Positions 1,072 through 31,696 of a stretch of DNA of 35,132 bases are shown here, piece after piece; positions within the stretch are counted from its first letter, which is position 1, and each line of letters begins with the position of its first letter. The notes under the pieces are model-generated. The model did no database searches, was not told where the DNA came from, and was given only the letters and a program-made list of their open reading frames with translations. The translations under genes were made by a program, and so were the position numbers. Source of the DNA: Candidatus Zixiibacteriota bacterium (lineage in GTDB: Bacteria > Zixibacteria > MSB-5A5 > GN15 > FEB-12); assembly GCA_029858555.1 (NCBI GenBank), contig JAOUEU010000006.1:1-35132 (forward strand), read 5' to 3'.

Positions 1072-1716
1072 TCATTGTTTGACGGTCACTGGTGGTCTGC
1101 TTCTGGCGACGCCATAGAGAGACATAGCATCTTCGGCAGACAGGCTAAGGTGCAGAGAATTCCCCCCTGTCAATGCGCACCATACGCGCCCGAAGACATC
1201 CTTTATCCACTGCCAGCGGAATGTTTTCGCAGTGGGACATTCAGTCTCGATATATATGCGCATGCCTTCACTCGTTACCAGAACCATCTTGCCGGGAAGG
1301 AATCGCTGGATGTGGTCCGCGCCGAGACCGGTCTCCTCGGCGATTATCCGTAACTCGGCTTCAGGGATTGTCTCAGCGCCCGAGATCAGGTAAACGCTCT
1401 CTACTATCGGCATCTCCGAGGGCGGAGACGACAGGTTCTCTGTGAACCCCCCGGTCATGCCGCCGTCATCCAGAATCGTGAAGGCATATTCGCGCAGGAC
1501 GATATCGGTCAGCCTGACGTCAATCACCTGTCGTTGCATATCTATGACCAGGCGCGGCGTTGCTTCCGAGACCGGTGCAAGCTTAGCGGCTTTCGGGCCC
1601 GGGCTTGCGGAAGACGGAGCTGCGGGGCCGAAAGCGGCAAGAAGGGTAAAGTGCAGGACAATTGCGGCAAGGGTCGGACCGCACGTGGTCTTGCATTGCA
1701 GAAAGCTAAAAGACAT
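1072..1716 (-). CDS. Exported YkuD-like protein without the catalytic HGC motif
   Basis: 214 aa. An N-terminal hydrophobic stretch (about residues 12-32) followed by a Pro/Ala/Ser-rich linker suggests export or membrane anchoring. The segment RLVIDMQRQVIDVRL resembles the first strands of YkuD domains (lvIDl..q.lyv). The C-terminal tail lines up without gaps with the end of the neighbouring L,D-transpeptidase: AEDAMSLYGVARSRPPVTV against TADLKKLYDHTRIGTSVYV. Where that enzyme has THGCVRL this protein has NSLHLSL, so the catalytic Cys is absent. It overlaps the upstream transpeptidase by 11 bases and is probably translated from the same mRNA. A structural or regulatory partner of the two active enzymes is plausible. 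The YkuD relationship rests on my hand alignment and could be wrong. Confidence 0.6.
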   Translation of the reverse strand: MSFSFLQCKTTCGPTLAAIVLHFTLLAAFGPAAPSSASPGPKAAKLAPVSEATPRLVIDMQRQVIDVRLTDIVLREYAFTILDDGGMTGGFTENLSSPPSEMPIVESVYLISGAETIPEAELRIIAEETGLGADHIQRFLPGKMVLVTSEGMRIYIETECPTAKTFRWQWIKDVFGRVWCALTGGNSLHLSLSAEDAMSLYGVARSRPPVTVKQ

Positions 1717-2344
1717 AAACGGAAGTCCCTATCCGGGTATGGTCATACAGCTTCTTCAGGTCGGCAGTGCCCAGCCGAACGCAGCCATGAGTCACGGCAA
1801 CTCCCAGCAGTCGCTCGTAGATAGTGCCGTGGATGAAGAAGCCGTCGCCGAAACCGATGGCGTATTCCCCCATCATCTGGTCGTCCAGGCGCTCCGCATC
1901 ATTTTTCGGCACCGGGATGCCTTCCTCGATAAAGGCCCAGTCCGGTTTGCGCCACCAGGGGTTTGTCAGTTTAGCGTCGACGGTGAAAACGCCCGGGGGT
2001 GTGTCAAATTGCCATCGCCGACCCGTCGGCGCGTCGACCAGTTCACCGCCGGAGCCGGTCGAGCAGAGAGCTTCGAGTAATATGGAATCTTCGGTCCTCA
2101 GAAACAGCTTGTTGCAGTACCTGTCAATGACGATGTAAGGACCCTTGAGGTGGCGAGCCTGTGACCGCCGCCCCGTGGTGTCGGAGTCACCGTTGGCGCC
2201 ACCAAACGCCGTGATCCGGCCATTGTAGAGAACCTCGGACGGCTGGATAGTGTCAACGGCTGTAGTCATCATCGGTCTCCGGACAATCAGTAAAGTCACG
2301 GCAACCACGGCGACCGAGAACAGCAGGCAGGAAAGCACTCTCAT
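1706..2344 (-). CDS. L,D-transpeptidase (YkuD domain)
   Basis: About 212 aa. An N-terminal membrane segment (MRVLSCLLFSVAVVAVTLLIV) anchors it or sends it to the periplasm. A YkuD domain follows (from about residue 70, YIVIDRYCNKLFLR). The active-site signature is complete: FFIHGT followed by VTHGCVRL, with the catalytic Cys in HGC. Such enzymes form 3-3 crosslinks or attach lipoproteins to peptidoglycan and use a Cys rather than a penicillin-sensitive Ser. I chose the ATG at 2344 because it forms a TAATG junction with the upstream gene's stop. An in-frame start at 2359 would add five residues. It is the middle of three YkuD-type genes in a row. Confidence 0.9.
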   Translation of the reverse strand: MRVLSCLLFSVAVVAVTLLIVRRPMMTTAVDTIQPSEVLYNGRITAFGGANGDSDTTGRRSQARHLKGPYIVIDRYCNKLFLRTEDSILLEALCSTGSGGELVDAPTGRRWQFDTPPGVFTVDAKLTNPWWRKPDWAFIEEGIPVPKNDAERLDDQMMGEYAIGFGDGFFIHGTIYERLLGVAVTHGCVRLGTADLKKLYDHTRIGTSVYVF

Positions 2345-3435
2345 TATCGTTTCTCCCACTGTCGAACGATGGTCACGGGGGTGCCGACGGTGGCAAGGCG
2401 CGCCAACTTATCCATATCCTTATCGGTCACGGCCACGCATCCGTCGGTCCAGTCACGACCGGTGCCGCCGTGACCGTGGATTTCAATCAATCCGCCAATC
2501 TGGGCATCGCGCGGGACAGCCCCGGACGCCAGGTTAGCCTGAAAACGGCGGCGGTCGTCGGCATTCGGGTAGTCCAGGACGAGGGCGAGATAGTACTTGC
2601 TGCCGCGGTTGACTCTTGTTACATGATACGCGCCTTCGGGAGTGGCCCCGTCGCCCTTCAACTTCTTCTGGCAGCCGGAGTTGTAGCCAAGATCGCAGGC
2701 CATGGAGTCGGCCACTCTGCCGGCCGACAGGATGTACAGATAGCGGCTGCTTTTATCGACGATGAGAGTCGTTTTCCCGGAAGTTCTTGATTCGTCCACT
2801 GCCTGCGCCGCCCAGTCTTGCGACCGTCGGACCCACTGGCTTCGGGAAGAATGATGTTCCTGATGGCGTTGTTGAAGAGTCCTGAATATGGCGGCGACGG
2901 TGTCGGCATATTCCCCGGCAGCTTGGAGCTGTCGTTTCTCCAGCATGTTTGCCGACATGTGCAGACTGAAGGCCGCCGAGCGGTACAGCAGTTCCTCGTC
3001 GGTACGAGGCAGGGCTTGATCGAGAAGGTCGCGCCAGACTTTCAGACTGTCATCCAGGCGGGAGATATCCGAGAGCATTTTTTCTTCTCGCCGTGTCTGC
3101 TTGCTTCCCGCCTCCGACACAGCCGCCCTGGACTGATGAATGGATTCCGACAGAAGGGAATCAGCCAGGCGGTATGACCCGAACGGCCACCAGCTGGTGC
3201 TGACTTCCGTCATCACCCGTCGCCCTTCAGTCAGGTTTTTTTGTGCCGAACGGTAGGTGTCGGCGGCCGAGCGGTCGGCCTGAGCCTGGCGAGCCGCCTC
3301 CAACAGATTCATAGCTCGCTGGAGCTTGTCCAGCGGCGGCTGCCGTAGTTCTCTGTGGGCGACGACACCGGCGAACAGTAACAGGACTATCGAGAACAAG
3401 ACCAAAACGGGAGTCGTACGATGGTGAGTCATCAT
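2344..3435 (-). CDS. Membrane-anchored L,D-transpeptidase with N-terminal helical domain
   Basis: About 363 aa. A signal anchor (residues about 8-27, TTPVLVLFSIVLLLFAGVVA) is followed by roughly 190 residues of predicted helix rich in Ala, Gln, Arg and Glu. That part resembles the helical lipoprotein encoded just upstream (DUF4398-like pattern). A C-terminal YkuD domain has IEIHGHGGTG and DWTDGCVAV, which hold the conserved His and catalytic Cys. The reaction is L,D-transpeptidation of peptidoglycan stem peptides or attachment of a protein to them. The open frame extends to a TTG at 3483, but that codon sits beside a strong hairpin arm (3482-3490). The ATG at 3435 gives a classical signal anchor, so I prefer it. 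The stop overlaps the next gene's ATG. Confidence 0.88.
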   Translation of the reverse strand: MMTHHRTTPVLVLFSIVLLLFAGVVAHRELRQPPLDKLQRAMNLLEAARQAQADRSAADTYRSAQKNLTEGRRVMTEVSTSWWPFGSYRLADSLLSESIHQSRAAVSEAGSKQTRREEKMLSDISRLDDSLKVWRDLLDQALPRTDEELLYRSAAFSLHMSANMLEKRQLQAAGEYADTVAAIFRTLQQRHQEHHSSRSQWVRRSQDWAAQAVDESRTSGKTTLIVDKSSRYLYILSAGRVADSMACDLGYNSGCQKKLKGDGATPEGAYHVTRVNRGSKYYLALVLDYPNADDRRRFQANLASGAVPRDAQIGGLIEIHGHGGTGRDWTDGCVAVTDKDMDKLARLATVGTPVTIVRQWEKR

Positions 3436-3481
3436 GGCGGGTCCGGCCCTCAGAAAATTCTTTGTCCGTGTCTTTATCAGC

Positions 3482-3511
3482 AAGGAGGGGAACTAAAGTG
3501 TGCCCCTCCTT
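3482..3511 (-). promoter_or_regulatory. Stable intercistronic hairpin between lipoprotein and transpeptidase genes
   Basis: AAGGAGGGG (3482-3490) and CCCCTCCTT (3503-3511) are perfect 9-bp arms around a 12-base loop. It lies 30 bases after the lipoprotein stop and 46 bases before the preferred transpeptidase start, reading on the minus strand. No T-run follows in either direction, so a partial terminator, an mRNA 3'-end stabiliser or a processing site fits better than a full terminator. The upstream lipoprotein could thereby be made in excess over the enzymes. Confidence 0.6.
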
Positions 3512-3540
3512 AGTCTGACGGGTTTTCAAGTTCGGAAAGA

Positions 3541-4140
3541 TTACTTGTTCGACAGCCGAGAAACCGCGGTCTGGATATCAGTTGTCACCTTCATGACCTG
3601 CTGCCTGACAGCCTGCAGTTGCTCTCTGGCGGTGAGGTAACGTCCCTGGCTGAATTGCCCGGTGGCGGCGGTCAGGGCGGCGGAGGCGGCCGTGATGTCG
3701 GCCTGCATTACTTTCAGGTCAATGCGAGAACCCTTGCCTTTGGGAGCGGCTGCAATACTCTTGTTGGCTTCGGTGATCAGGGAATCAATCTCTGCGATCA
3801 AAGTGCTGTCCTGAAGGCGCACTCTTTCTTTTTCGGCGGCAGCCTCAACGACGGCTTTCTCGGCAAGCCCCTGGGCCACTATGAAGAATTCTTTGGCTTT
3901 ACCATAGCTGCGGAAAGCAGAAAACCTGTCGTCCTGCTTCTGCATCTCAACCACCGCCGCATTCAGAGAGTCGGTGGCTTGGCTGAAAAGAGCAGGAGCA
4001 TACTGCTCTGCCTCGGCCAGGCGCGCTTTTTCGAGAGTCGCCTTGCCGGCGTCATACTGTGCAGTCGGGGATTCGCTGCACCCCGCAACGAATCCGGCGA
4101 GAGCGAGTGCCACCAAAATCGACGACACACGCTTATTCAT
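3541..4140 (-). CDS. Helical lipoprotein ending in lysine (DUF4398-like)
   Basis: 199 aa. The signal peptide ends in a lipobox-like GFVAGC with the lipidated Cys at residue 21. The mature part is almost wholly predicted helix (Ala/Glu/Lys/Gln-rich, two or more long helices) and ends SRLSNK with a C-terminal lysine. The composition and A...A.....Y..A...L spacing match the N-terminal helical domain of the transpeptidase downstream. The start has a good ribosome binding site (GGAAGGA about 7 bases upstream). A C-terminal lysine is the residue through which E. coli Lpp is joined to peptidoglycan by L,D-transpeptidases, and two such enzymes are encoded next door. The tether role is inference. The protein is about three times longer than Lpp. 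Confidence 0.8.
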   Translation of the reverse strand: MNKRVSSILVALALAGFVAGCSESPTAQYDAGKATLEKARLAEAEQYAPALFSQATDSLNAAVVEMQKQDDRFSAFRSYGKAKEFFIVAQGLAEKAVVEAAAEKERVRLQDSTLIAEIDSLITEANKSIAAAPKGKGSRIDLKVMQADITAASAALTAATGQFSQGRYLTAREQLQAVRQQVMKVTTDIQTAVSRLSNK

Positions 4141-4790: not shown

Positions 4791-6476
4791 GTGCAGCGTC
4801 CGAGACTATCTCTGGAAATCACTCACACCTGGCACTGGGTTGTCGGGTTTCTGGCGCTCCTCTGGATATTGCTGAGGAGCGGGACTAATCCCAAGAGGTT
4901 GACCTATCCCTGTCAGCGGGCGGCGATGCCGATTGCGACCGGCTGGCTGCTTTCACTTTTCGCCTTCCTTGGGGCAGGCCTGTTTCTAAAGCGCTTTCTC
5001 AAGGCTTCCGGTATTGTTCTGGTGGCGCTGGGACTTATCTGGTTTATCGGCCTGCGCCCGGAACCTTCGAAGTCGGCGATTGACATATCCTTGGCGCTAC
5101 CCATCTGGGAGACGCCCGATCCCATTTCGACGGTCTTCGTGTATGACAACATACCTCCAACCACGGGTTCACTGGCGGCGGGCGACGCCACCGTTCCGGA
5201 TGAGCACCTGTCGGACCCGGCCATGGACACTCTTGTGGCACTGCTGGAAACGGGGGGCGTGTTCCTTCACCGCACAGGTGTCCATCCCGAGGGAGTGGTG
5301 GGAGCGGATGACGTCGTGATAATCAAGGGCAACTACCAGTGGACGGCCCAGAACACGACCAACACCGACCGCGTCAAGGGCTTGATACGGCAAATTCTTC
5401 TCCACCCGGACGGATTTACGGGCGAAATCATTGTCTGCGACAACACCCAGGAAATCGGTACCGGCATACTGGACAACGACAACAACTCGGACGACAGCGA
5501 GCAGAGCATAGAGGATGTGGTGAACACGTTTTACGCCAAGGGGCATCCGGTATACCTGCTGGATTGGAATATTTACTGGAACGTGGTGGTAGATGAGTAT
5601 TCCGCTGGCGACGACGCGAGCGGCTATGTATACGAAGCAGACACGAAAGTGACTTACCCGAAATTCCTCACACCCTCGGGCGAGCATCGCGTTTCGCTGC
5701 GCTATGGTGTGTGGGACCCGGTGAGTGAAACGTATGATGCCTCGCGGCTGTGCATAATAGATTTTCCGGTGCTTAAAGCCCACGTGCTGGCCGGCGCTAC
5801 GATCGCCGTCAAAAATTGGGTGGGTGTTCTCACAACGGCTTACGCCGACGAACGCTATGGGGGCTGGAATCAGATGCATAGCACCTACATCTTCGGCGGT
5901 TATGCTCTGGTGGCGCGGGTCATCGCCGTAACGTATCCCGACCTCACGATCGTCGATGCGACGTGGACATCGGGTTGGGGGCCAAGCAACCTGGCACACC
6001 TGACCAATACCAAAGCCCTGGTAGCCTCGACCGACCCCGTGGCAGCATCATGGTACGCCGCCAAGTTCATCCTGACGCCGGTCGCCGTGGAGCCGGATCA
6101 GACAAATCCCGACCTGCCGAGCAGCACGTACAGTAAGTGCCTGTCGAGATGGACGGGCTTCCTGGTCGATTCGGCAGGTTTTGCCTGTACCATGGATTCC
6201 TCAGCGATGTCGGTCTATGGGCGGGAAGTTTTCGGGTGCTGTGAAGGAGTTCGCGGCAACACGAATGACGACCCGGATGACAAGATAAATGTCTCGGATG
6301 TGACCTACCTCGTGACCTACCTTTTCGGAATTCCGACAGGCCCGGAGCCGGTCTGCTGGGAGGAAGGCAACGCCAACGGCGATCCTGACGAGAAGGTGAA
6401 CGTCTCGGACGTGAGTTACTTGTTGGCCTACCTTTTCGGAATCCCCTCCGGCCCGGCGCCGCCGGCATGCCCTTGA
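4791..6476 (+). CDS. Membrane-anchored DUF362-domain protein with C-terminal dockerin-like repeats
   Basis: 561 aa, GTG start with a GGAG ribosome binding site about 10 bases upstream. Three hydrophobic segments come first (about residues 17-33, 49-67, 71-88), with a conserved-looking NPKRLTYPCQRAA between the first two. Then comes a DUF362 domain (about 150-450): VVIIKGNYQW, EIIVCDNTQ, IIDFPVLKAHVLAGATIAVKNWVG, and ALVASTDPVAASWYAAKFI. Many DUF362 proteins also carry a 4Fe-4S ferredoxin domain. I see no CxxCxxC cluster here. The C-terminus has two Asp/Asn-rich repeats (about 488-518 and 525-555), each ending in VSDVTYLV.YLFGIP, which resemble dockerin calcium-binding units. The molecular function of DUF362 is not established. 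The repeats suggest an extracytoplasmic, calcium-stabilised C-terminus. A terminator follows at 6508. Confidence 0.85.
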   Translation: MQRPRLSLEITHTWHWVVGFLALLWILLRSGTNPKRLTYPCQRAAMPIATGWLLSLFAFLGAGLFLKRFLKASGIVLVALGLIWFIGLRPEPSKSAIDISLALPIWETPDPISTVFVYDNIPPTTGSLAAGDATVPDEHLSDPAMDTLVALLETGGVFLHRTGVHPEGVVGADDVVIIKGNYQWTAQNTTNTDRVKGLIRQILLHPDGFTGEIIVCDNTQEIGTGILDNDNNSDDSEQSIEDVVNTFYAKGHPVYLLDWNIYWNVVVDEYSAGDDASGYVYEADTKVTYPKFLTPSGEHRVSLRYGVWDPVSETYDASRLCIIDFPVLKAHVLAGATIAVKNWVGVLTTAYADERYGGWNQMHSTYIFGGYALVARVIAVTYPDLTIVDATWTSGWGPSNLAHLTNTKALVASTDPVAASWYAAKFILTPVAVEPDQTNPDLPSSTYSKCLSRWTGFLVDSAGFACTMDSSAMSVYGREVFGCCEGVRGNTNDDPDDKINVSDVTYLVTYLFGIPTGPEPVCWEEGNANGDPDEKVNVSDVSYLLAYLFGIPSGPAPPACP

Positions 6477-6531: not shown

Positions 6532-6645
6532 GCCGCATGGCCGGGCGTAACCCGTTCTGCCATAGCAAGAAACGAGTCCCAGTCAATGTGGGGGCGAGCA
6601 ACATATATGTTGACGGCATATTAAGTGGCGGTTAGATTTTCTGCT

Positions 6646-8643
6646 ATGGAGAGATTTCTCAGACGGCTCGCCGCAGCGGTGGTCGTTATCCTCGCAGCGG
6701 CAGTGGCTTACTACGTGTGGGACACCTTCCGCGAGAAGAGCACTGCGGAGAAACTGGCCGAAATAATTCACGATGAAGACCGGCGGGAACTTAGCGGTCG
6801 CCTCGAGACCTACCTGCACTGTACCGATCCGGAAGTGCGCGGGCGGGCGGCCCTGACGGTGGGTCGTATCGGACAAAAAGGCAGCGGCAAGCTGCTCATC
6901 GATATGGTGACCGACAGCAGTCTCGACGTGGCTTCACAAGCGGCCTTTGCGCTGGGGTTGACCAGGGAAAAAGGGTATGCTTCTCAGTTGATGGACATGG
7001 TCCCTGACGTGCCGTCGGCGGTGGCGATGCGGCTGGTGGAAGCGGCGGGCCGGCTGGCCGACAGCACCATGTATGACGTCGCCAACCAGTTGGTGGAGGC
7101 TCTTTCGCATCCGTCACCGGACGTGCGGGAGGCGGCTTGCCTGGCCCTGTTTCGGGCGGGGGCGAAATCGAAAGCAGCGGCTGTGACCGAATTTGTCAAT
7201 GGCGAAGAGGACGCTCTGGTGCAGGCGGCGGCCCTGTACGCCCTGTCTCGCTTCGAGGCGAACCAGGCCATGCCTGTTTTTGTACGGTTTCTGGCCGATG
7301 CCGACCCGTTCGTGCGCGCAACAGCCATCAGCGGCCTGAGTCACATAGCCTCCCCCGATGCCGAACACTACCTGGCCATAGCTTTGAACGACAGCGACCC
7401 GAGCGTGGTCGCCCAGGCCGTGGCAGCGCTTGGCAGGAAAGATAATTCGGAGGCCCGCACCCAACTGGCCCGAAAACTCGAGCAGGTGACCGACGAAAAG
7501 GTCATGGTAGCGCTGATAGAGGCGATGCGGCGGCAGGAAAACCGGGATGGTCTGAGCGCTATTCTGGCCAAACTCGAAGTTTACCCGGTCCCGGCAGTGG
7601 TTGCGGCAGGCATTAAGTACCTGGCCGTGATCCGGAAGGACCGTTCGGTGAACATGATAGATTCCCTGGCGGCGCAGGGCGAGCCGTACATCAGGGCTGC
7701 CTGTGCGGAGGCTTATGGTCTGGTCGGCAAGAGCAATGTTGTCCCCCGGCTGGCGGTGCTCTTCAGTGATGAGGATGGTATGGTGCGGATGGCCGCCTTT
7801 GATGCCCTGGTGCGGCTGGATTCGACCAATGTCGACTTTTACCTGGGCAAAGCCCTAGCCGATGCGGATTACGTTGTGGTCACGGGTACCGTCGAAATGA
7901 TTAAACAGAAGCGGCTGGCCGGTTACCTGCCGGTACTGCGGACCATGATGTCGCGCGGTGAGGCAATCGATGTGGACATCCGGCGTGAACTGGTACAGGC
8001 GGCCGGTGTTTTTCTTGCGGAGAACCCGAACGATACGGCTGCCATGGAAATCCTGCTGGACGGGATTCTTGACCCGGAGTACGTAGTGCGGGTGGAAGCA
8101 GCCGAAATTCACGCAGGGCTCCCGAGCGGGGACAGGCCCGGGCTGGCTTCAGTGGCACAGACTCGCATCAGCGAGGGCAGGATTGAAAGCGCTCTCGACA
8201 AATACGCCACCAATCCATACGCCACTATCCATACCGATAAAGGGGAAATCGAGATGGAGCTCTTCTTCGATGCGGCGCCACTGACGGTTCTGAATTTCAT
8301 TGAGCTTGCCGAGGACGGCTTCTACGAAGGGCTGATTTTTCACCGGGTGGTTCCGGGCTTCGTGATCCAGGGCGGCGACCCGCGGGGCGATGGCTGGGGC
8401 GGCCCACCCTACTACATCCGCTGTGAATATTCCTGGGAGCCGTTCAGACGGGGCACCGTGGGAGTGGCTACATCCGGCAAAGACACCGGCGGCTCGCAGT
8501 TTTTCATCACGCTGGCGCGCCAGCCGCACCTTGAAGGTCGGTACACCGTCTTTGGGCAAGTCGTAGCCGGTATGGATGTTGTCGACAGAATCGCGTATGG
8601 CGATGTGATCCAGAAAGTCGTGATAGAGGAAACATCGAAATGA
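6646..8643 (+). CDS. HEAT-repeat protein fused to a cyclophilin-type peptidyl-prolyl isomerase
   Basis: About 665 aa. An N-terminal anchor ([25 protein letters not shown]) leads into roughly 450 residues of HEAT/PBS-type helical repeats (repeated DPxVRxxAxxALxxL patterns). The last 140 residues are a cyclophilin: [32 protein letters not shown] and GSQFFITL...[12 protein letters not shown]. The Arg, Phe and Gln of the FHRV-x2-GFVIQGG active site are intact. The Trp of the human enzyme is His here, as in many bacterial cyclophilins. It probably works on the outer face of the inner membrane as a chaperone or foldase, with the HEAT solenoid binding partners. The frame stays open to a GTG at 6625. 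I took the ATG because it starts the anchor. The stop overlaps the next gene by 4 bases (ATGA). Confidence 0.9.
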
Positions 8644-24288: not shown

Positions 24289-26013
24289 TTGGATAAGAAA
24301 ACGATAGCATTGGTTGTCATCCTGGCACTCATCGTAATATTCTATTTCCCGATCATGCAGCGGCTGGGGTTCATGAAGCCTCCGGCCGAACAGCCGCCGG
24401 CGGAGGTGCCGACTGATACCGTTGCGCTATCTCAGCAGCCACCGCCGACATCACCTGCTGTCGAAGACACTTCTCAGATTATTGCGCCACAAAGGCTTGA
24501 AGAGGCCGCCATTTTGGCAGAGCCGATGCTTGATACTAATTATGTTGTTGATACAATTATAGTTAACACAAACAAATATTCGGTAATTCTGACGAGCTAT
24601 GGCGGTGGGCCGGTCTCGATGCTTCTGAATGACTATACCTACCGCAAGGACGGCCCCATCCAGATGCTTCCGGAAGCCGTTTCGGCAACCCCTGAGGCGA
24701 CATTCGCTGGCGGGACCTTCTCAACTTCGTCAATCCACTACGGCGCCAGCATACTGCCGGGCAGCTATGACGCGACCCGCGAGCCGCTGGATGTCATTTA
24801 TACATACCGGCGTCCGGAAGGTGGCGAAGTAATCAAATCTTACCGGTTCTACCCCGATCGGTACGCCTTCGACCTGGTGTTCGAAGTACGCGAGACGGTG
24901 GCGTTTGGTTTTGAGCGCAAGTACAACATGATGTGGAATACGCCGCTGGGGGTGACGGAACCTGATTTGCAGACGGATTACCAGGCGATGGAAGCGGTGG
25001 CGATGATGGCCGGTTCGCGGGAGAAGCTGGACGATTTCGAAGACGGCGTGCTCAAGCAGGATTTGACGGGAGCGACCACCTGGGCGGGGGTGCGCGCGAA
25101 ATATTTCGCGGCGGTGATAATCCCGAAAAACCGGGATGGTGATGCGGCTGTCGCCCGGGGTACGAAAAACAATGTGATGACCGCTGACGGCAAGGTGGAA
25201 CAAAGGAAAATCACGGCCGGCCTGGAGATGCAGTTCGCCAACGCCCCGGCTATTGCCGACAGCTTTACCGTATTCGTGGGGCCGTTGGATTACACGCTGA
25301 TGTCGAAATACGATGTGGGCCTGGAGGACATGCTCGATATCGGCACGACACCGTTCGTCGGCTGGATAATCAAGCCGTTCGCCATTGCCATCATCTGGCT
25401 TCTGCCCCGCCTTTACAGCGTGGTTCCCAATTACGGTCTGGTCATAATCCTGTTCGCATTGCTGGTGAAGATCGTGACGCTGCCGCTGTCGATGAAATCA
25501 TTCAAGTCGATGCAGGCGATGAAAACGCTTCAGCCGAAAATAGAGGCGCTCAAGGAGAAACACAAAAAGAACCCGCAGGCGCTCAACCAGGAAATGATGA
25601 AGCTGTACAAGGCGCACGGTGTGAACCCGATCTCGGGCTGTCTGCCGATTTTGCCGCAGATGCCGCTCTTTTTTGCGTTGTTCTCCGTTTTCCGCTCGAC
25701 CATCCTGCTTCGCGACGCACCTTTTGTGTGGTTCATATCCGACCTGTCACGCGGGGCGAGCGGTTTCGCCGACCCGTATATCGTTCTGGTGATAATTATG
25801 ATCGTGGCGCAGTTTGTCTCGCAGAAGTTCACGATGGCCTCCACGCAGCAGAACAAGGCCTTCATGTATATCATGCCGCTGTTCATGGGGTTCATCTTCT
25901 ACAAATTCGCCGCCGGCCTGGTGCTGTACTGGACGTGCTTCTCGGTGTTCTCGCTGCTGGACTATCTTGTTTTCCGTCGGGATAAAAACCCGCAGATCCA
26001 AACCGCCAAGTAG
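24289..26013 (+). CDS. yidC: Membrane protein insertase YidC
   Basis: 574 aa, TTG start with AAGGAAG upstream. Plan: first membrane helix (about residues 6-24), a Pro/Ala-rich linker, a large periplasmic beta domain (about 75-340), then the five-helix insertase core (NYGLVIILFALLVKIVTLPLS... to LYWTCFSVFSLLDYLVF). The long periplasmic domain is typical of diderm bacteria and absent from Gram-positive homologues. It inserts proteins with or without SecYEG. It ends two bases before mnmE, without the jag/khpB gene that often sits here. Confidence 0.96.
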   Translation: MDKKTIALVVILALIVIFYFPIMQRLGFMKPPAEQPPAEVPTDTVALSQQPPPTSPAVEDTSQIIAPQRLEEAAILAEPMLDTNYVVDTIIVNTNKYSVILTSYGGGPVSMLLNDYTYRKDGPIQMLPEAVSATPEATFAGGTFSTSSIHYGASILPGSYDATREPLDVIYTYRRPEGGEVIKSYRFYPDRYAFDLVFEVRETVAFGFERKYNMMWNTPLGVTEPDLQTDYQAMEAVAMMAGSREKLDDFEDGVLKQDLTGATTWAGVRAKYFAAVIIPKNRDGDAAVARGTKNNVMTADGKVEQRKITAGLEMQFANAPAIADSFTVFVGPLDYTLMSKYDVGLEDMLDIGTTPFVGWIIKPFAIAIIWLLPRLYSVVPNYGLVIILFALLVKIVTLPLSMKSFKSMQAMKTLQPKIEALKEKHKKNPQALNQEMMKLYKAHGVNPISGCLPILPQMPLFFALFSVFRSTILLRDAPFVWFISDLSRGASGFADPYIVLVIIMIVAQFVSQKFTMASTQQNKAFMYIMPLFMGFIFYKFAAGLVLYWTCFSVFSLLDYLVFRRDKNPQIQTAK

Positions 26014-26015
26014 CC

Positions 26016-27434
26016 ATGTGTCCGCAGAACAAAGGGCGCATCCGTCTCGCATTTGACGAGACTATTGCCGCCATCATCACCCCTCCGGGGGAAGGCGGCA
26101 TTGCGGCTGTCCGCATCGCCGGGCGGCGCAGCCGCGCTCTGCTGGAGAAACACTTCCGGGCAGCATCCCGGGCGACGGAGGCATCTGCCGCCGTACCCTT
26201 CCTCATGCGATACGGACAGTTTCTCAATCCGCAGGGGTGTGCGGTCGATGAGGTGATGGCGGTTTTTATGCCGGAAGGCAGGTCGTACACGGGTCTGGAA
26301 CAGGTGGAGCTGTATTGTCACGGGGGTCGGGAAGTAGTCAGGGAGATACTCGACAACCTGCTGGCCTCAGGCGCACGGGCCGCCGAGCCGGGTGAGTTCA
26401 CCAGGCTGGCCTTTCTCTCCGGTCGCATCGACCTGGTGCACGCCGAGGCCGTCGCGGAGATCATTGCCGCCAACACATCAGCATCGTTCGAAACCGCCCG
26501 GGAGCATCTCATCGGTGCTTACAGCGAACGCATCGAAAAATTGCGTGACGAGCTGGTGGAGATCATGGCCCAGGTGGAAGCCTCCATTGATTTTCCCGAG
26601 GAGGAGATCGATCCGGCCGAAGGCGTCAAGCTGGTTCCGTCACTGGACAGCATAATCGTCGATATCAGGGAGCTGGTCGACAGCTACCGGGGCGGAAGAA
26701 TTATAAGAGAAGGCTATAAGATCGCCATCGCCGGCCGGCCGAACTCCGGGAAATCCTCGTTATTCAATCTCATGCTCCGACAGGAGCGAGCCCTGGTCAC
26801 AGAGACGGCCGGCACTACCCGCGACTACCTGTCCGAATGGGTGGAACTTGACGGTTTTGCTGTCAACCTGGTTGACACCGCCGGCCTTCGCGCCAGGGGA
26901 GGCGTCATTGAGAAAGCCGGGCAGAAATCGGCCATGAAAATAATCGATGAGGCTGACCTGATACTGTGGATGTTTGACATTTGTGAGAAATCCTGGCAAA
27001 AAAACCTCGAGGCGGACTTAAAGTCTCTAAAACACAATCTTAATTTGTTGCTCGCCAACAAGATAGATCTGCTGAAAAATTATTCGTCGCATTTGACTCG
27101 GCTCACGGAGAAATCAAATTTGGTCTTCCCCATATCCTGTCTTACAGGTCGGGGAATCAAACGTTTGAAGAAGGCGATCGTTTCACATATTAATAGGAGT
27201 ATGCCTGACCTCACCTCGGGGGTGGTGGTGACTTCAGCCAGGCACCGCCAGAAGCTGGTCTCGGCTATCGCGAATCTCAGGAAAGCTCGGTCAAAACTCA
27301 AGGCTGCCGAGAGTCCGGAGTTAACTGCCTTTGACTTGCGGCAGGCGGTTAGTGATATTGACGAGATTACCGGACGGATATATACCGAGGAGATACTGGC
27401 TCGGATCTTTTCAAAATTCTGTGTTGGAAAGTGA
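26016..27434 (+). CDS. mnmE: tRNA modification GTPase MnmE
   Basis: 472 aa. The N-terminal tetrahydrofolate-binding domain (ETIAAIITPPGEGGIAAVRIAG, GEFTRLAFLSGRIDLVHAEAVAEII) is followed by a G domain with G1 GRPNSGKSS, G3 DTAGLR and G4 NKID, and by the C-terminal FCVGK (usual FCIGK) with the catalytic Cys. With MnmG it installs the (carboxymethyl)aminomethyl group on wobble uridine 34 of certain tRNAs. Start ATG is two bases after the yidC stop. A parS site lies in the 78-base gap that follows. Confidence 0.97.
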   Translation: MCPQNKGRIRLAFDETIAAIITPPGEGGIAAVRIAGRRSRALLEKHFRAASRATEASAAVPFLMRYGQFLNPQGCAVDEVMAVFMPEGRSYTGLEQVELYCHGGREVVREILDNLLASGARAAEPGEFTRLAFLSGRIDLVHAEAVAEIIAANTSASFETAREHLIGAYSERIEKLRDELVEIMAQVEASIDFPEEEIDPAEGVKLVPSLDSIIVDIRELVDSYRGGRIIREGYKIAIAGRPNSGKSSLFNLMLRQERALVTETAGTTRDYLSEWVELDGFAVNLVDTAGLRARGGVIEKAGQKSAMKIIDEADLILWMFDICEKSWQKNLEADLKSLKHNLNLLLANKIDLLKNYSSHLTRLTEKSNLVFPISCLTGRGIKRLKKAIVSHINRSMPDLTSGVVVTSARHRQKLVSAIANLRKARSKLKAAESPELTAFDLRQAVSDIDEITGRIYTEEILARIFSKFCVGK

Positions 27435-27454
27435 GAGCCTGAAAACATTGTACC

Positions 27455-27470
27455 GGTTTCACGTGAAACT
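27455..27470. promoter_or_regulatory. parS: parS centromere site 1 (ParB-binding)
   Basis: GGTTTCACGTGAAACT contains the 14-bp palindrome GTTTCACGTGAAAC, which is the core of the canonical parS (TGTTTCACGTGAAACA). Only the outermost base at each end differs. It lies between mnmE and mnmG, about 2.6 kb from parA. Confidence 0.92.
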
Positions 27471-27512
27471 GGTGGCGTCTGACTCATCTGACAACGGAAC
27501 AGGCATCAATAC

Positions 27513-29390
27513 ATGAACAAGAGCCTAGAAAACATTTACGATGTAGCCGTGATTGGCGGTGGCCATGCCGGTGTTGAAGCGGCCCTGGCCGTGGCCCGCA
27601 TGGGCAAGACGGCGGCGTTGATCACTATGGATGCGAATAGACTGGCCCTGATGTCCTGCAATCCGGCCATCGGCGGTATTGCCAAGTCCCACGTTGTCAA
27701 GGAGGTCGATGCCCTCGGCGGGTTGATGGGACGGGCTATCGACGCTACTGGTATACAGTTTCGGCGTCTGAACTTGTCGCGTGGTCCGGCGGTCTGGTCT
27801 ACTCGGGTACAGGCTGACCGTATTGCTTACACCAAATACGTCTCTGATCTTGTCGGCGCTCACAAAAACGTGACCATGGTGGAAGATGTGGCCGGGGAGC
27901 TGCTCGCCGACGGTACAGCCGTTTGCGGAGTCAGAACCGAGCAGGGGGAAATCATTCGTTCAAGGGCGGTTATCGTAACCACCGGGACATTCCTCGCGGG
28001 ACTGATCCATATCGGCGAGAAGAAAATAAAGGCCGGTCGAATGGATGAACAGGCCGCTTACGAATTGAGCAAGTCCCTGCTGTCTTTGGGATTTGAGCTG
28101 GGAAGACTGAAAACCGGCACTCCCCCCCGCCTTGACGGGGACACTGTAAATTGGGAGAAATGCGAAAAGCAACAAGGCCATGAACCTATACCGTTCTTTT
28201 CTTATAGCAACGGGCGACGAAAGGTCGATCAGGTTGCCTGTTATCTGACCAAAACAACTGCTGAGACCAAAAGAATCATATCCGCCAATTTTGGCCGCTC
28301 GCCGATATTCTCAGGCCAGATCACGTCAACCGGCCCAAGGTATTGTCCTTCAATCGAGGCCAAGTTTCATCGTTTCGCCGACAAGGAAAGTCATCAGATC
28401 TTTCTGGAGCCGGAAGGCAACGGAACTAACGAGATATATCCCAACGGCTTTTCAACCGCTCTGCCTGAAGAAGTGCAAAATTCAGCGATCAGAACCGTGG
28501 TGGGATTGGAACATGCAAAAATAACGAGGCCGGGGTATGCTATTGAATATGATTACAGTCCGGCCTATCAAATAAAACCTTCGCTGGAAACGAGGCGAGT
28601 CCGCGGTTTGTTTTTCGCCGGACAAATAAACGGGACTTCGGGATACGAAGAGGCGGCCGGCCAGGGGTTGATGGCCGGAATTAATGCGGTTCTTTATATA
28701 GAGCATGAGCCGCCGTTTGTTCTCGATCGCTCCGAGGCCTATATCGGTGTTATGATCGATGACCTGACAACGCGCTCGACCACAGAACCTTACCGTCTTT
28801 TCACTTCAAGGGCCGAGTACCGTCTGGCCCTGCGCGAGGACAATGCGCGAGACCGGCTTTTTGGCTACGCTAAGAAATACGGCTTGATCCCGGAGGGTGA
28901 CTTCGCAGAGTTCGAAAAGCTGAAAAAAGAAACAGAAGGTGTAATCAACAGGCTCCGGAGGACCCGCATCAAGGTGGCCGATTTGGGGGACCTGGGTATT
29001 AGGTTCAAAAAGACCGAAAGGATCAGCCTCGAAAATCTATTGAAGCAACCTAACATAACTATCAATGAGGCCCTGCCCTTTCTCAAACAGGCAGACCCGG
29101 CCTTGCCCGACAGGCACGAGGTTCTCGAACGGGCGGCTATTTTCATCAGGTACAGCGGCTATATTGGCAAACAGAAGCGGGAAATTGAAAAGTTCAGACG
29201 CATGGAAGAGGAGAGAATCCCCTTCGATTTCGATTATGAGACAGTGAGCGGCTTGAAAGTGGAAGCGCGGGAGAAGTTCCTTCACTTCCGTCCGGCCTCA
29301 CTGGGTCAAGCCGGCCGGATAGAGGGTGTCAGTCCGGGTGATATTGCTGTTCTTTCAGTTTACCTGATGAGACATAAAGGTGCCGACTGA
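27513..29390 (+). CDS. mnmG: tRNA uridine-5-carboxymethylaminomethyl modification enzyme MnmG (GidA)
   Basis: 625 aa. N-terminal FAD-binding VIGGGHAGVEAALAVARMGKTAALIT, then CNPAIGGIAKSHVVKEVDALGG, RRLNLSRGPAVWSTRVQADR, and GLFFAGQINGTSGYEEAAGQGL, all family signatures, and a C-terminal helical domain. It is the partner of MnmE in modification of tRNA wobble uridine. Length is normal. Its stop overlaps the rsmG start (TGATG). Confidence 0.97.
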   Translation: MNKSLENIYDVAVIGGGHAGVEAALAVARMGKTAALITMDANRLALMSCNPAIGGIAKSHVVKEVDALGGLMGRAIDATGIQFRRLNLSRGPAVWSTRVQADRIAYTKYVSDLVGAHKNVTMVEDVAGELLADGTAVCGVRTEQGEIIRSRAVIVTTGTFLAGLIHIGEKKIKAGRMDEQAAYELSKSLLSLGFELGRLKTGTPPRLDGDTVNWEKCEKQQGHEPIPFFSYSNGRRKVDQVACYLTKTTAETKRIISANFGRSPIFSGQITSTGPRYCPSIEAKFHRFADKESHQIFLEPEGNGTNEIYPNGFSTALPEEVQNSAIRTVVGLEHAKITRPGYAIEYDYSPAYQIKPSLETRRVRGLFFAGQINGTSGYEEAAGQGLMAGINAVLYIEHEPPFVLDRSEAYIGVMIDDLTTRSTTEPYRLFTSRAEYRLALREDNARDRLFGYAKKYGLIPEGDFAEFEKLKKETEGVINRLRRTRIKVADLGDLGIRFKKTERISLENLLKQPNITINEALPFLKQADPALPDRHEVLERAAIFIRYSGYIGKQKREIEKFRRMEEERIPFDFDYETVSGLKVEAREKFLHFRPASLGQAGRIEGVSPGDIAVLSVYLMRHKGAD

Positions 29391-30004
29391 TGAATTCATC
29401 TGATAGTGCGCTTATCTATAACGCAAAAGATCTGCTGGATAAGTACGATCCCACAAAAAGCTTAGATCGATTTTTCAGCCACCTGGCCCGTGAAAATAAG
29501 CGGGTCAACCTGGTTTCACGTGAAACCATCAGCGGCGATCGCCTTACCCAATTAGCGGCCGAATCACTGGCTGTTTTTGAGACTATCCCGTCGGCCAGCG
29601 TCGAGTCGTACCTTGACATCGGCTCCGGCGGCGGCTTTCCAGCGGTACCCATTCTTCTCACGCACTCGGTCGCACGGGCGGTGCTTGTCGAACGAACACA
29701 GAAGAAAGCGTCAGCTCTCAGGCGTATTCTCCTTGCCCTGGGCGTCAAGGCCACGATCCTGGCTACTACATTCGAGACGACGTCATTCCACGAAGATTTT
29801 GACCTGGTGACGCTCCGCCTGGTGCGGCTGACTCAGCCCCTGTTTACGGCCATAATGGCGGCGGTCAAACCGGGGGGAAGATTTTTGTACTACGCAGCTT
29901 CAGACTTTCCGACCGGTTCCGACCGGTGGAACTGTTCGTCCGGCAGCTATCGTGTTGGCCGCGAATCTCATCCGATATCTTACACGCTTTTTGTAAAAAC
30001 GTAG
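29390..30004 (+). CDS. rsmG: 16S rRNA (guanine-N7)-methyltransferase RsmG (GidB)
   Basis: 204 aa. SAM-binding LDIGSGGGFPAVPI and KKASALRRILLALGV fit RsmG, which methylates G527 of 16S rRNA in E. coli numbering. The N-terminal NLVSRETISG segment is encoded by bases that also form the second parS site. It is translationally coupled to mnmG by a one-base overlap. An 88-base gap separates it from parA. Confidence 0.95.
   Translation: MNSSDSALIYNAKDLLDKYDPTKSLDRFFSHLARENKRVNLVSRETISGDRLTQLAAESLAVFETIPSASVESYLDIGSGGGFPAVPILLTHSVARAVLVERTQKKASALRRILLALGVKATILATTFETTSFHEDFDLVTLRLVRLTQPLFTAIMAAVKPGGRFLYYAASDFPTGSDRWNCSSGSYRVGRESHPISYTLFVKT
29512..29527. promoter_or_regulatory. parS: parS centromere site 2, inside rsmG
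   Basis: GGTTTCACGTGAAACC is a perfect 16-bp palindrome with the parS core GTTTCACGTGAAAC. It lies within coding sequence (codons for LVSRET), 581 bases upstream of parA. Confidence 0.92.
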
Positions 30005-30092
30005 TCCACACCTGGTTTTTTGTTGATTTTTAGAGACCTTACCATAAACTACCCAAAACCTTATAACAGTACTGAAAATGACGGGATGAGTT

Positions 30093-30851
30093 TTGGGTAA
30101 GATTATAGCAATCGCCAATCAGAAGGGCGGTGTCGGCAAGACGACCACGGCCGTGAATCTGAGTTCGTGCCTGGCCGCCGCCGAGCAGAAGACACTGCTG
30201 ATAGACATGGATCCGCAGGCCAATTCCACCAGCGGGGTCGGTTTTGACAAGACGGCAGTGGAATCATCGGTCTATGATGTGCTTATTGACGCCAGGCCCA
30301 TTCGCGAAGTTATCAAACCGACCGACCTGCAATATCTCCACCTGGTGCCGTCGTCGATATCGCTGGTGGGTGCGGAGGTGGAGCTGGTCAGTATGCTCTC
30401 GCGGGAGACGCGTCTCCGGTCGGTGCTGACGGAGGTGGTTGACGAGTATCAGTACATCGTCATAGACTGTCCGCCCTCGCTGGGTCTATTGACCATCAAC
30501 ACCCTCACGGCGGCCGATTCCGTGATTATCCCGATCCAGTGCGAGTACTATGCGCTCGAGGGGCTGGGCCAGCTTTTGAACACGATCAAGCTGATCCAGG
30601 AGCATCTCAATCCGTCTTTGACAATTGAGGGAGTATTGCTAACGATGTACGACAGCCGCCTGAACCTTTCGCGGCAGGTTTCGGATGAGGTGCGCAAGTA
30701 TTTCGACGATAAAGTCTACGATACCGTCATCTCCCGCAACGTCCGTCTTTCCGAAGCGCCGTCGTTTGGCAAACCGATCATCCTTTACGATATTCTGTCT
30801 ACTGGCGCCGAAAACTACATGGCTCTGACAAAAGAGGTTATGGCACAATGA
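30093..30851 (+). CDS. parA: Chromosome-partitioning ATPase ParA/Soj
   Basis: 252 aa, TTG start. The ATG seven bases earlier runs straight into a stop. Deviant Walker A KGGVGKTT at residues 11-18 sits in IIAIANQKGGVGKTTTAVNLSSCLA. The DMDPQAN and VIDCPPSLGLLTINTL motifs are present. The protein is short and lacks the N-terminal HTH of plasmid type Ia ParA, as expected of a chromosomal Soj-type protein. With ParB-parS it moves the origin region and often regulates DnaA. It overlaps parB by 4 bases (ATGA). Confidence 0.97.
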   Translation: MGKIIAIANQKGGVGKTTTAVNLSSCLAAAEQKTLLIDMDPQANSTSGVGFDKTAVESSVYDVLIDARPIREVIKPTDLQYLHLVPSSISLVGAEVELVSMLSRETRLRSVLTEVVDEYQYIVIDCPPSLGLLTINTLTAADSVIIPIQCEYYALEGLGQLLNTIKLIQEHLNPSLTIEGVLLTMYDSRLNLSRQVSDEVRKYFDDKVYDTVISRNVRLSEAPSFGKPIILYDILSTGAENYMALTKEVMAQ

Positions 30852-31696
30852 GCAAAGTTGTTCTGGGTAAAGGCCTGGGTGCTTTGATTCCGAGCGAGGC
30901 CGGCAAAGCGGCGGGTGAAAAGAGACTACGGATGGTATCGCTGGACGGCATCGCGCCCAACCCGATGCAGCCGCGCCGCGACTTCGATGAGGCTTCGCTT
31001 ATCGAACTGGCCGAATCTTTCAAGATGAACGGTATCATACAACCTATCGTTGTCAGGCAGGACGGCGCCGTTTACACGATCATAGTCGGCGAGCGGCGCT
31101 TCCGGGCGGCCCGGCTGGCCGGCCTGGAAGAGATTCCCGTGATGGTCATGGAGGACGTTGATGATGCGGGTATGCTGGAACTGGCCCTGGTCGAAAACCT
31201 GCAGAGGGAAAACCTCAATCCGCTCGAGGTGGCCGAGGCCTACCGGATGCTCATTGAGAAGTGCGGTTTGACTCAGCGGGAGGTGGCCGAGAAAGTCGGA
31301 CGCAGCCGCACGGCCGTGACCAACCTGTTGCGGCTGCTCATGCTTCCGGATTCGGTCAAGAGCTACATCCGCGAAGGCAAACTGAGCGAGGGCCATGCCC
31401 GGGCGGTGCTGGCGGTAAATGACGAGGCCGAGATGCTTCGCCTGAGTGAGCGAATAGTCAACGAGTCGCTCTCGGTGCGGCAGACAGAGGAAGTTACCCG
31501 CCGGAGCACTCGCCGGCGACTGGTGCCGAAGAAAAAACTGCCGGCGATCGCGGAGATGGAATCGTACCTCAAGCGCCTGCTGGCAACATCGGTGAAAATC
31601 AGCCATGGTTTGAAACGCGGCCGGATAAAGATCGAATATTACGGGGATGACGATCTCAATCGTCTGCTGGAACTGTTCCGCCGCATCGAGCAATAG
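30848..31696 (+). CDS. parB: Chromosome-partitioning protein ParB/Spo0J (CTPase)
   Basis: 282 aa. N-terminal ParA-contact region (LGKGLGALIPS), ParB/Srx fold with NPMQPRRDFDEASLIELAESFKMNGIIQPIVVR and the CTP-binding GERRFRAARLAG, central HTH (LTQREVAEKVGRSRTAVTNLLRLL) for parS, and C-terminal dimerisation domain. Two parS sites are present upstream, and the HTH and CTP motifs look intact. The M23 peptidase gene starts 3 bases after its stop, so segregation and envelope genes are likely in one transcript. Confidence 0.97.
   Translation: MSKVVLGKGLGALIPSEAGKAAGEKRLRMVSLDGIAPNPMQPRRDFDEASLIELAESFKMNGIIQPIVVRQDGAVYTIIVGERRFRAARLAGLEEIPVMVMEDVDDAGMLELALVENLQRENLNPLEVAEAYRMLIEKCGLTQREVAEKVGRSRTAVTNLLRLLMLPDSVKSYIREGKLSEGHARAVLAVNDEAEMLRLSERIVNESLSVRQTEEVTRRSTRRRLVPKKKLPAIAEMESYLKRLLATSVKISHGLKRGRIKIEYYGDDDLNRLLELFRRIEQ

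Follow-up and report, generated by a model that had tools for sequence, protein, structure and literature searches.

A conserved lipoprotein–YkuD operon of Zixibacteria and other phyla is a candidate outer membrane–peptidoglycan tether module

How might a diderm bacterium that lacks Lpp fasten its outer membrane (OM) to peptidoglycan? The question is raised by a group of genes in a 35,132-nucleotide stretch of contig JAOUEU010000006.1 (Candidatus Zixiibacteriota bacterium, assembly GCA_029858555.1), which we call the window. In Escherichia coli, LdtA–C attach Lpp to peptidoglycan and DpaA cuts it off. An initial annotation of window positions 2344–4140 had proposed a possible unrelated tether in a diderm phylum from which Lpp is not described, made of a Lys-ended lipoprotein and two neighboring YkuD enzymes. 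We find that the pairing of lipoprotein and YkuD enzymes without Lpp stands, whereas the C-terminal lysine does not hold as the defining feature. The genes lie on the minus strand in the order LP (the lipoprotein), LDT1, LDT2 (the two YkuD enzymes) and G4, forming a four-gene operon; the annotated span takes in LP and LDT1 but leaves out nearly all of LDT2 and the whole of G4. We judge it reasonably probable that this operon is an OM-to-peptidoglycan tether module that attaches and detaches its anchor, in the manner of Lpp with LdtA–C and DpaA, with an anchor protein unrelated to Lpp.

The individual genes bear out much of what had been read from the window. LP carries a signal peptide with a VAGC lipobox at Cys21 and a mature chain of 179 residues that ends in SRLSNK, and a fold that is almost all helix is plausible from its sequence; among orthologues, the mature length is mostly 176–183 residues. 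Two intact YkuD enzymes follow on the same strand, with the motifs HG..DWTDGCVAV in LDT1 and THGCVRL in LDT2, and both score far above the PF03734 cut-off of 23.4 bits (Table 1). A profile search of the assembly finds two YkuD domains in total in the 3.4-Mb genome, those of LDT1 and LDT2. The reading frames of LDT1 and LDT2 overlap by 16 nucleotides and those of LDT2 and G4 by 11; for LDT1, a TTG start at 3483 gives 379 residues, and an ATG at 3435 or 3432 is likelier. G4, a stem-loop between LP and LDT1 and an invariant internal lysine of LP had escaped the initial annotation.

The arrangement is strongly conserved within the phylum, for which we sampled 133 Zixibacteria genomes. The LDT1 query matched 48 of these, about 41 of the matches being full-length or nearly so. 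LP lies directly upstream of LDT1 in 41/41 loci, LDT2 lies downstream in 39/41 with the other two stopping at contig edges, and G4 is detected in 35/41. In profile searches, LP and YkuD occur together in 42 genomes, LP only in one (where it sits at a contig end), YkuD only in 11 and neither in 79, a joint presence with Fisher p = 4e-23 when genomes are counted as independent despite their kinship. Six genomes with merely weak matches of the DUF4398 type (see below) were scored as LP-negative in this count. In most of the carriers in the phylum, the two operon enzymes are the sole YkuD genes.

To look beyond the phylum, we scanned public genomes and obtained 80 loci. LP is upstream in 56 of the 57 with a full-length LDT1, and LDT2 is downstream in nearly all; the exception, L098, has LDT1 near the start of its contig. 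By record title, the carriers include Calditrichota, Bacteroidota (Roseivirga, Maribellus, Mangrovibacterium and Labilibaculum), Acidobacteriota, Rhodothermota and Nitrospirota, with the proviso that some titles of metagenome-assembled genomes may be unreliable. The carriers outside the phylum that we examined encode two or three YkuD proteins altogether. Another 23 loci match the LDT1-type YkuD domain only, and none has LP; short LDT1-like proteins without an LP neighbor (L128, L129, L132–L152) were treated as a separate set. The pairing seen in the initial annotation is kept within the phylum and beyond it. Because the arrangement recurs at about 90 loci of several phyla, we regard it as more than chance. 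A further rival account, a loose set of envelope genes kept together by descent with no shared function, draws on the fact that the operon is known from sequence alone, but we consider it highly improbable: gene order is kept across phyla at low protein identity, presence and absence go together in the 133 genomes, frames overlap, and two of the genes are fused in one genome.

The two enzymes fall into different classes. Both had been taken for L,D-transpeptidases, which fits LDT2; LDT1 is by sequence of the DpaA/carboxypeptidase class of hydrolases, so that the pair consists of one transpeptidase and one probable detaching amidase. As the mark of a DpaA or carboxypeptidase we used the conserved Lys83 of the meso-diaminopimelate (mDAP) pocket together with Ala or Asn, not Arg, two residues after the catalytic Cys (Cys+2), and as that of a transpeptidase Arg at Cys+2 (PMC8263019), with the residues of the DpaA cleft as named in PMC10653827. 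Equivalents of DpaA Lys83, Cys143 and Ala145 are present in all 19 LDT1 sequences compared. The NCBIfam DpaA model NF040599 is matched by 36/37 LDT1 homologues (best E 8e-11), the window LDT1 scoring 19.5 bits, far under the equivalog cut-off of 365 bits. The solved structures nearest to LDT1 are 8ikr, Csd6, Bd1075 and Pgp2; 8ikr, listed without a gene name, fits DpaA by sequence and residue numbering. All 36 LDT2 homologues match NCBIfam L,D-transpeptidase models, namely LdtE and PRK10260 and PRK10190, the latter two of which we take to be of the LdtA/LdtC type, and Cys193 and Arg195 are invariant in the 36 sequences. A maximum-likelihood tree places LDT1 with E. coli DpaA and the short proteins, apart from LDT2 and E. 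coli LdtA–E with 99/97 support, and LDT1 (99/97) and LDT2 (95/89) each form one group, with E. coli DpaA and LdtD on long branches.

These assignments also bear on a different division of labor, in which LDT1 would be an LD-carboxypeptidase like Csd6 or Pgp2 that trims tetra- to tripeptides and acts on cell shape, LDT2 a 3-3 cross-linker and LP a mere anchor. The LDT1 profile does match Csd6, Bd1075 and Pgp2, LDT2 also matches the 3-3 cross-linker LdtE, and some DpaA homologues may be carboxypeptidases (PMC8263019). In the D-Ala pocket of Csd6, however, only the Tyr133 site keeps Tyr or Phe in LDT1; the Trp158 site, which corresponds to Met133 of DpaA, is Glu in every LDT1 compared. Since this division also leaves the strict pairing with a lipoprotein unexplained, we hold it to be improbable.

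The fourth gene is probably a degenerate YkuD. G4 has no Pfam match in its window copy and none that is consistent across the family, and the catalytic Cys motif of YkuD was not found in it. Its profile nevertheless aligns with that of LDT2 (hhalign, E = 4.7e-7, probability 92.5). An alignment-based model reaches a predicted local distance difference test score (pLDDT) of 77, the single-sequence model being unusable at 33, and nearly all of the top 50 Foldseek hits are L,D-transpeptidases, all of them weak (best E 3e-3, template modeling score about 0.3). In genome G125 (locus L170), an intact LDT2 runs on into G4 within a single 352-residue frame; LP lies upstream, and LDT1 is absent. The likeliest role of G4 is that of a non-catalytic partner of LDT2. 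As G125 retains LP and LDT2 without LDT1, the transpeptidase appears to be the core partner of the lipoprotein.

LP is not a form of Lpp. It has no match to the Lpp domain profile PF04728, nor does any of the 133 phylum genomes, the E. coli control being positive. Its nearest family is DUF4398 (PF14346), which both LP and LDT1 match just under the cut-off; LP scores 19.8 bits where the gathering cut-off is 27.9, 30/35 relatives have E <= 0.01, and the match in the LP family spans 75–80 residues. In the literature that we searched for DUF4398 and for Zixibacteria, we found no functional account. The helical domain of LDT1 that the initial annotation had likened to the lipoprotein is borne out by family profiles, which align LP with LDT1 over 169 columns, the lipobox region among them (E = 1.7e-20); pairwise BLASTP gives no signal, the relation being visible by profiles alone.

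This LP-like domain may serve substrate recognition or the formation of a hetero-oligomer, and fits both equally well. The second possibility would suit a non-covalent role, in which LP is an OM adaptor or activator that pairs with LDT1 through the helical domain common to the two, and all four proteins make up a peptidoglycan-remodeling complex for 3-3 cross-linking or trimming. LpoA and LpoB, the activators of penicillin-binding proteins, are an analogue. The homology of LP with the N-terminal domain of LDT1 is what would be expected of hetero-oligomer partners, the gene pairing is strict, the G4–LDT2 fusion in one genome suggests a complex, and the terminal lysine is not conserved. On the other hand, LP occurs in G125 without LDT1 and so does not need the paralogous domain. 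With the features of LP described below, this leads us to regard an adaptor role as rather less likely than a tether, to which it is the main rival.

Relatives of LP occur in other settings. In genome G113, a frame on the minus strand of L159 (2318–3376) joins an LP-like lipoprotein domain to a cyclophilin peptidyl-prolyl isomerase domain (PF00160, E = 5.7e-39); here too, an LP-type domain serves as membrane anchor. An OmpA domain had been suspected in this long paralogue, in which Pfam shows the cyclophilin domain instead. Stand-alone DUF4398-type lipoproteins, with tails that are mostly Lys-rich, are present at L164–L169 (genomes G100, G101, G102, G107, G108 and G109), and these genomes have no YkuD apart from one of another type in G109.

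If LP is attached covalently, which lysine is used? The C-terminal one, whose invariance the initial annotation had put forward as decisive, varies: of the 82 operon LPs, 45 end in K, 19 in R and 18 in another residue, though 78/81 have a K within the final 10 residues. Tethering is compatible with a variable last residue, because published attachments use internal or near-terminal lysines: LimB is linked through the internal Lys21 and Lpg1810 near its terminus via Lys-Thr (PMC12729407), and OutB and Lpg1810 are joined at or near a C-terminal lysine in a tolerant sequence (PMC12274547, PMC11841132). By itself, a terminal Lys counts for little in any case, since over 20% of the periplasmic proteins and lipoproteins of E. 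coli have Lys as their last residue (PMC12274547). We also considered the Lys-ended tail as a trait specific to YkuD partners and rejected it, as Lys-ended paralogues occur in YkuD-free genomes.

Invariant positions of the operon LPs, where a residue is present, are limited to Cys21, Pro25 and Lys136. Lys136 is retained across phyla, including L061, L125 and L115, which have no Lys in their last 10 residues; its alignment is less sure in seven Acidobacteria-type LPs with several lysines at this place. The region appears to be a loop, because insertions of a few residues in some Acidobacteriota LPs fall exactly there, and the loop motif A-P-x-G-K is missing from the Lys-ended paralogues without a YkuD neighbor. 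As the terminal Lys is neither invariant nor specific, Lys136 seems the better single candidate for attachment, and both it and the basic tail are left unexplained if LP is only an adaptor. In a number of LPs, mostly of Acidobacteriota (L094, L095, L099, L103, L107, L121 and L123), the chain ends in Cys or Cys-Lys (KFKCK, KLGC, RIRC, IGCK); most of these have a second Cys in the Lys136 loop, and a disulfide is possible.

Signs of abundance are also found at LP. The 70 nucleotides past its stop codon fold far better than shuffled sequences (z < -2) at 66/83 loci, compared with 8/83 for the region after LDT1 and 6/83 inside LP, and a stem of at least 7 bp follows LP at 73/87 loci compared with 8/87 inside it. 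A T-run comes after 27 of the 39 stems outside the phylum and 8 of the 34 within, and we consider the stem-loop a candidate attenuator or mRNA stabilizer. In 5/10 genomes, the codon adaptation of LP equals or exceeds the ribosomal median, with the enzymes at or near background (LP compared with LDT1, p = 0.02); LP and ribosomal values are 0.78/0.71 in Labilibaculum, 0.82/0.74 in Maribellus and 0.76/0.70 in Roseivirga. Together, stem-loop and codon usage suggest indirectly that LP is an abundant structural protein needed above the level of the enzymes, as Lpp is, and such an excess would be untypical of a one-to-one activator.

In the tether mechanism that we propose, LP would be produced in excess, exported and lipidated at Cys21, and would stay in the OM. 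LDT2 would then use the L-center of the mDAP residue of a tetrapeptide stem and join it to the side-chain amine of an LP lysine, most likely that of the invariant Lys136 in the loop and otherwise one in the basic C-terminal tail. LDT1, itself membrane-anchored, may dock on LP via its LP-like domain and hydrolyze the link, which would make the anchoring reversible, and G4, as a probably dead YkuD, would assist or regulate LDT2.

Several points weigh against this tether. The genome also encodes OmpA-domain proteins, which are non-covalent anchors. The terminal Lys is variable among LP orthologues, paralogues from YkuD-free genomes can end in Lys as well, and Lys136 could be structural. At the sites of DpaA Lys130, Tyr131 and Met133, the window LDT1 has Gly, Leu and Glu; because Lys130 and Tyr131 are missing and Glu replaces Met133, the substrate of LDT1 may differ from that of DpaA. 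In the window genome, LP has a codon adaptation of 0.60 compared with 0.69 for ribosomal genes, and in two other Zixibacteria it is not raised either; codon bias is weak overall in this phylum.

Table 1. Positions of the operon genes and of sites within them in the window
Feature	Position	Strand	Remarks
LP, helical lipoprotein, DUF4398-like, proposed anchor	3541..4140	minus	199 residues, 179 mature; orthologues upstream of LDT1
LDT1, YkuD enzyme of the DpaA/LD-carboxypeptidase class by sequence	2344..3435	minus	Membrane-anchored N terminus, helical domain akin to LP, YkuD domain
YkuD catalytic domain of LDT1, TDGCVA	2368..2772	minus	PF03734, 67.3 bits
LDT2, YkuD transpeptidase, motif THGCVR, proposed attaching enzyme	1706..2359	minus	PF03734, 71.4 bits
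G4, probable degenerate YkuD without catalytic Cys or Pfam match	1072..1716	minus	Conserved fourth position
Cys21 codon, lipidated residue of the VAGC lipobox	4078..4080	minus	Cys in 79/79 orthologues that have a residue at this site
Lys136 codon, inter-helix loop A-P-x-G-K, candidate attachment lysine	3733..3735	minus	K in 82/82
Lys199 codon, C-terminal Lys of LP	3544..3546	minus	Last residue K 45/82, R 19/82
GC-rich stem-loop of 9 bp, AAGGAGGGG...CCCCTCCTT, just past the LP stop	3482..3511	minus	z = -3.4

Three further features noted in the window lie on the plus strand. A DUF362 protein (PF04015) at 4791–6476 has apparent dockerin-type repeats at its C terminus, and a frame at 6625–8643 reads by eye as a HEAT-like repeat region ahead of a cyclophilin-type isomerase domain. 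The region 24289–31696 appears by eye to hold a yidC-mnmE-mnmG-rsmG-parA-parB cluster, typical of a chromosome origin region.

To our knowledge, Lpp occurs in only part of the Gammaproteobacteria. DpaA-like proteins have been noted in phyla that lack Lpp, among them Acidobacteria and Bacteroidetes, and their purpose was left open (PMC8263019). In the literature searched, in which subscription journals are sparsely covered, we found no published description of this operon, and a 2025 review of L,D-transpeptidases contains no occurrence of Bacteroid- or Acidobacter-. The operon supplies candidates for the substrate, the attaching enzyme and the lysine; if the proposal is true, reversible covalent anchoring of the OM by a lipoprotein is far wider than Lpp and was reached with a different protein. 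As the carriers include the probably cultured genera Labilibaculum, Roseivirga, Maribellus and Mangrovibacterium, the question is directly testable. We put forward more tentatively a fuller version, in which the operon corresponds to the Braun lipoprotein system in Zixibacteria, Calditrichota, Bacteroidota, Acidobacteriota and other phyla, with an abundant non-Lpp LP, one YkuD enzyme that attaches it, one that releases it and a pseudo-YkuD, and in which attachment takes place via the invariant internal loop lysine instead of the C terminus. On this version, LP would be the missing substrate of DpaA-like enzymes in phyla without Lpp.

Like the E. coli system of Lpp with LdtA, LdtB, LdtC and DpaA, the operon combines a helical lipoprotein with YkuD enzymes of the transpeptidase and DpaA classes, a lysine is the likely acceptor, and the stem-loop and codon use at LP are signs of abundance. 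It differs in that LP is unrelated to the Braun lipoprotein (PF04728), about three times longer and multi-helical, with a conserved internal Lys136 in lieu of a conserved terminal Lys, and in that the genes stand in a single operon with a fourth, YkuD-like gene. LDT1 shares with DpaA/YafK (LdtF) the Lys83 equivalent, the catalytic Cys and Ala instead of Arg at Cys+2, but has an LP-like helical domain at its N terminus, Glu at the Met133 site and neither Lys130 nor Tyr131. Among other attached proteins, Dickeya OutB is an inner-membrane protein and Legionella Lpg1810 an OM fatty acid transporter, for neither of which dedicated adjacent enzymes are described. LimB of Coxiella burnetii is an OM lipoprotein linked to mDAP via an internal lysine, Lys21 (PMC12729407); unlike LimB, which is described as Coxiella-specific, LP has its enzymes encoded next to it, and the set is present in several phyla.

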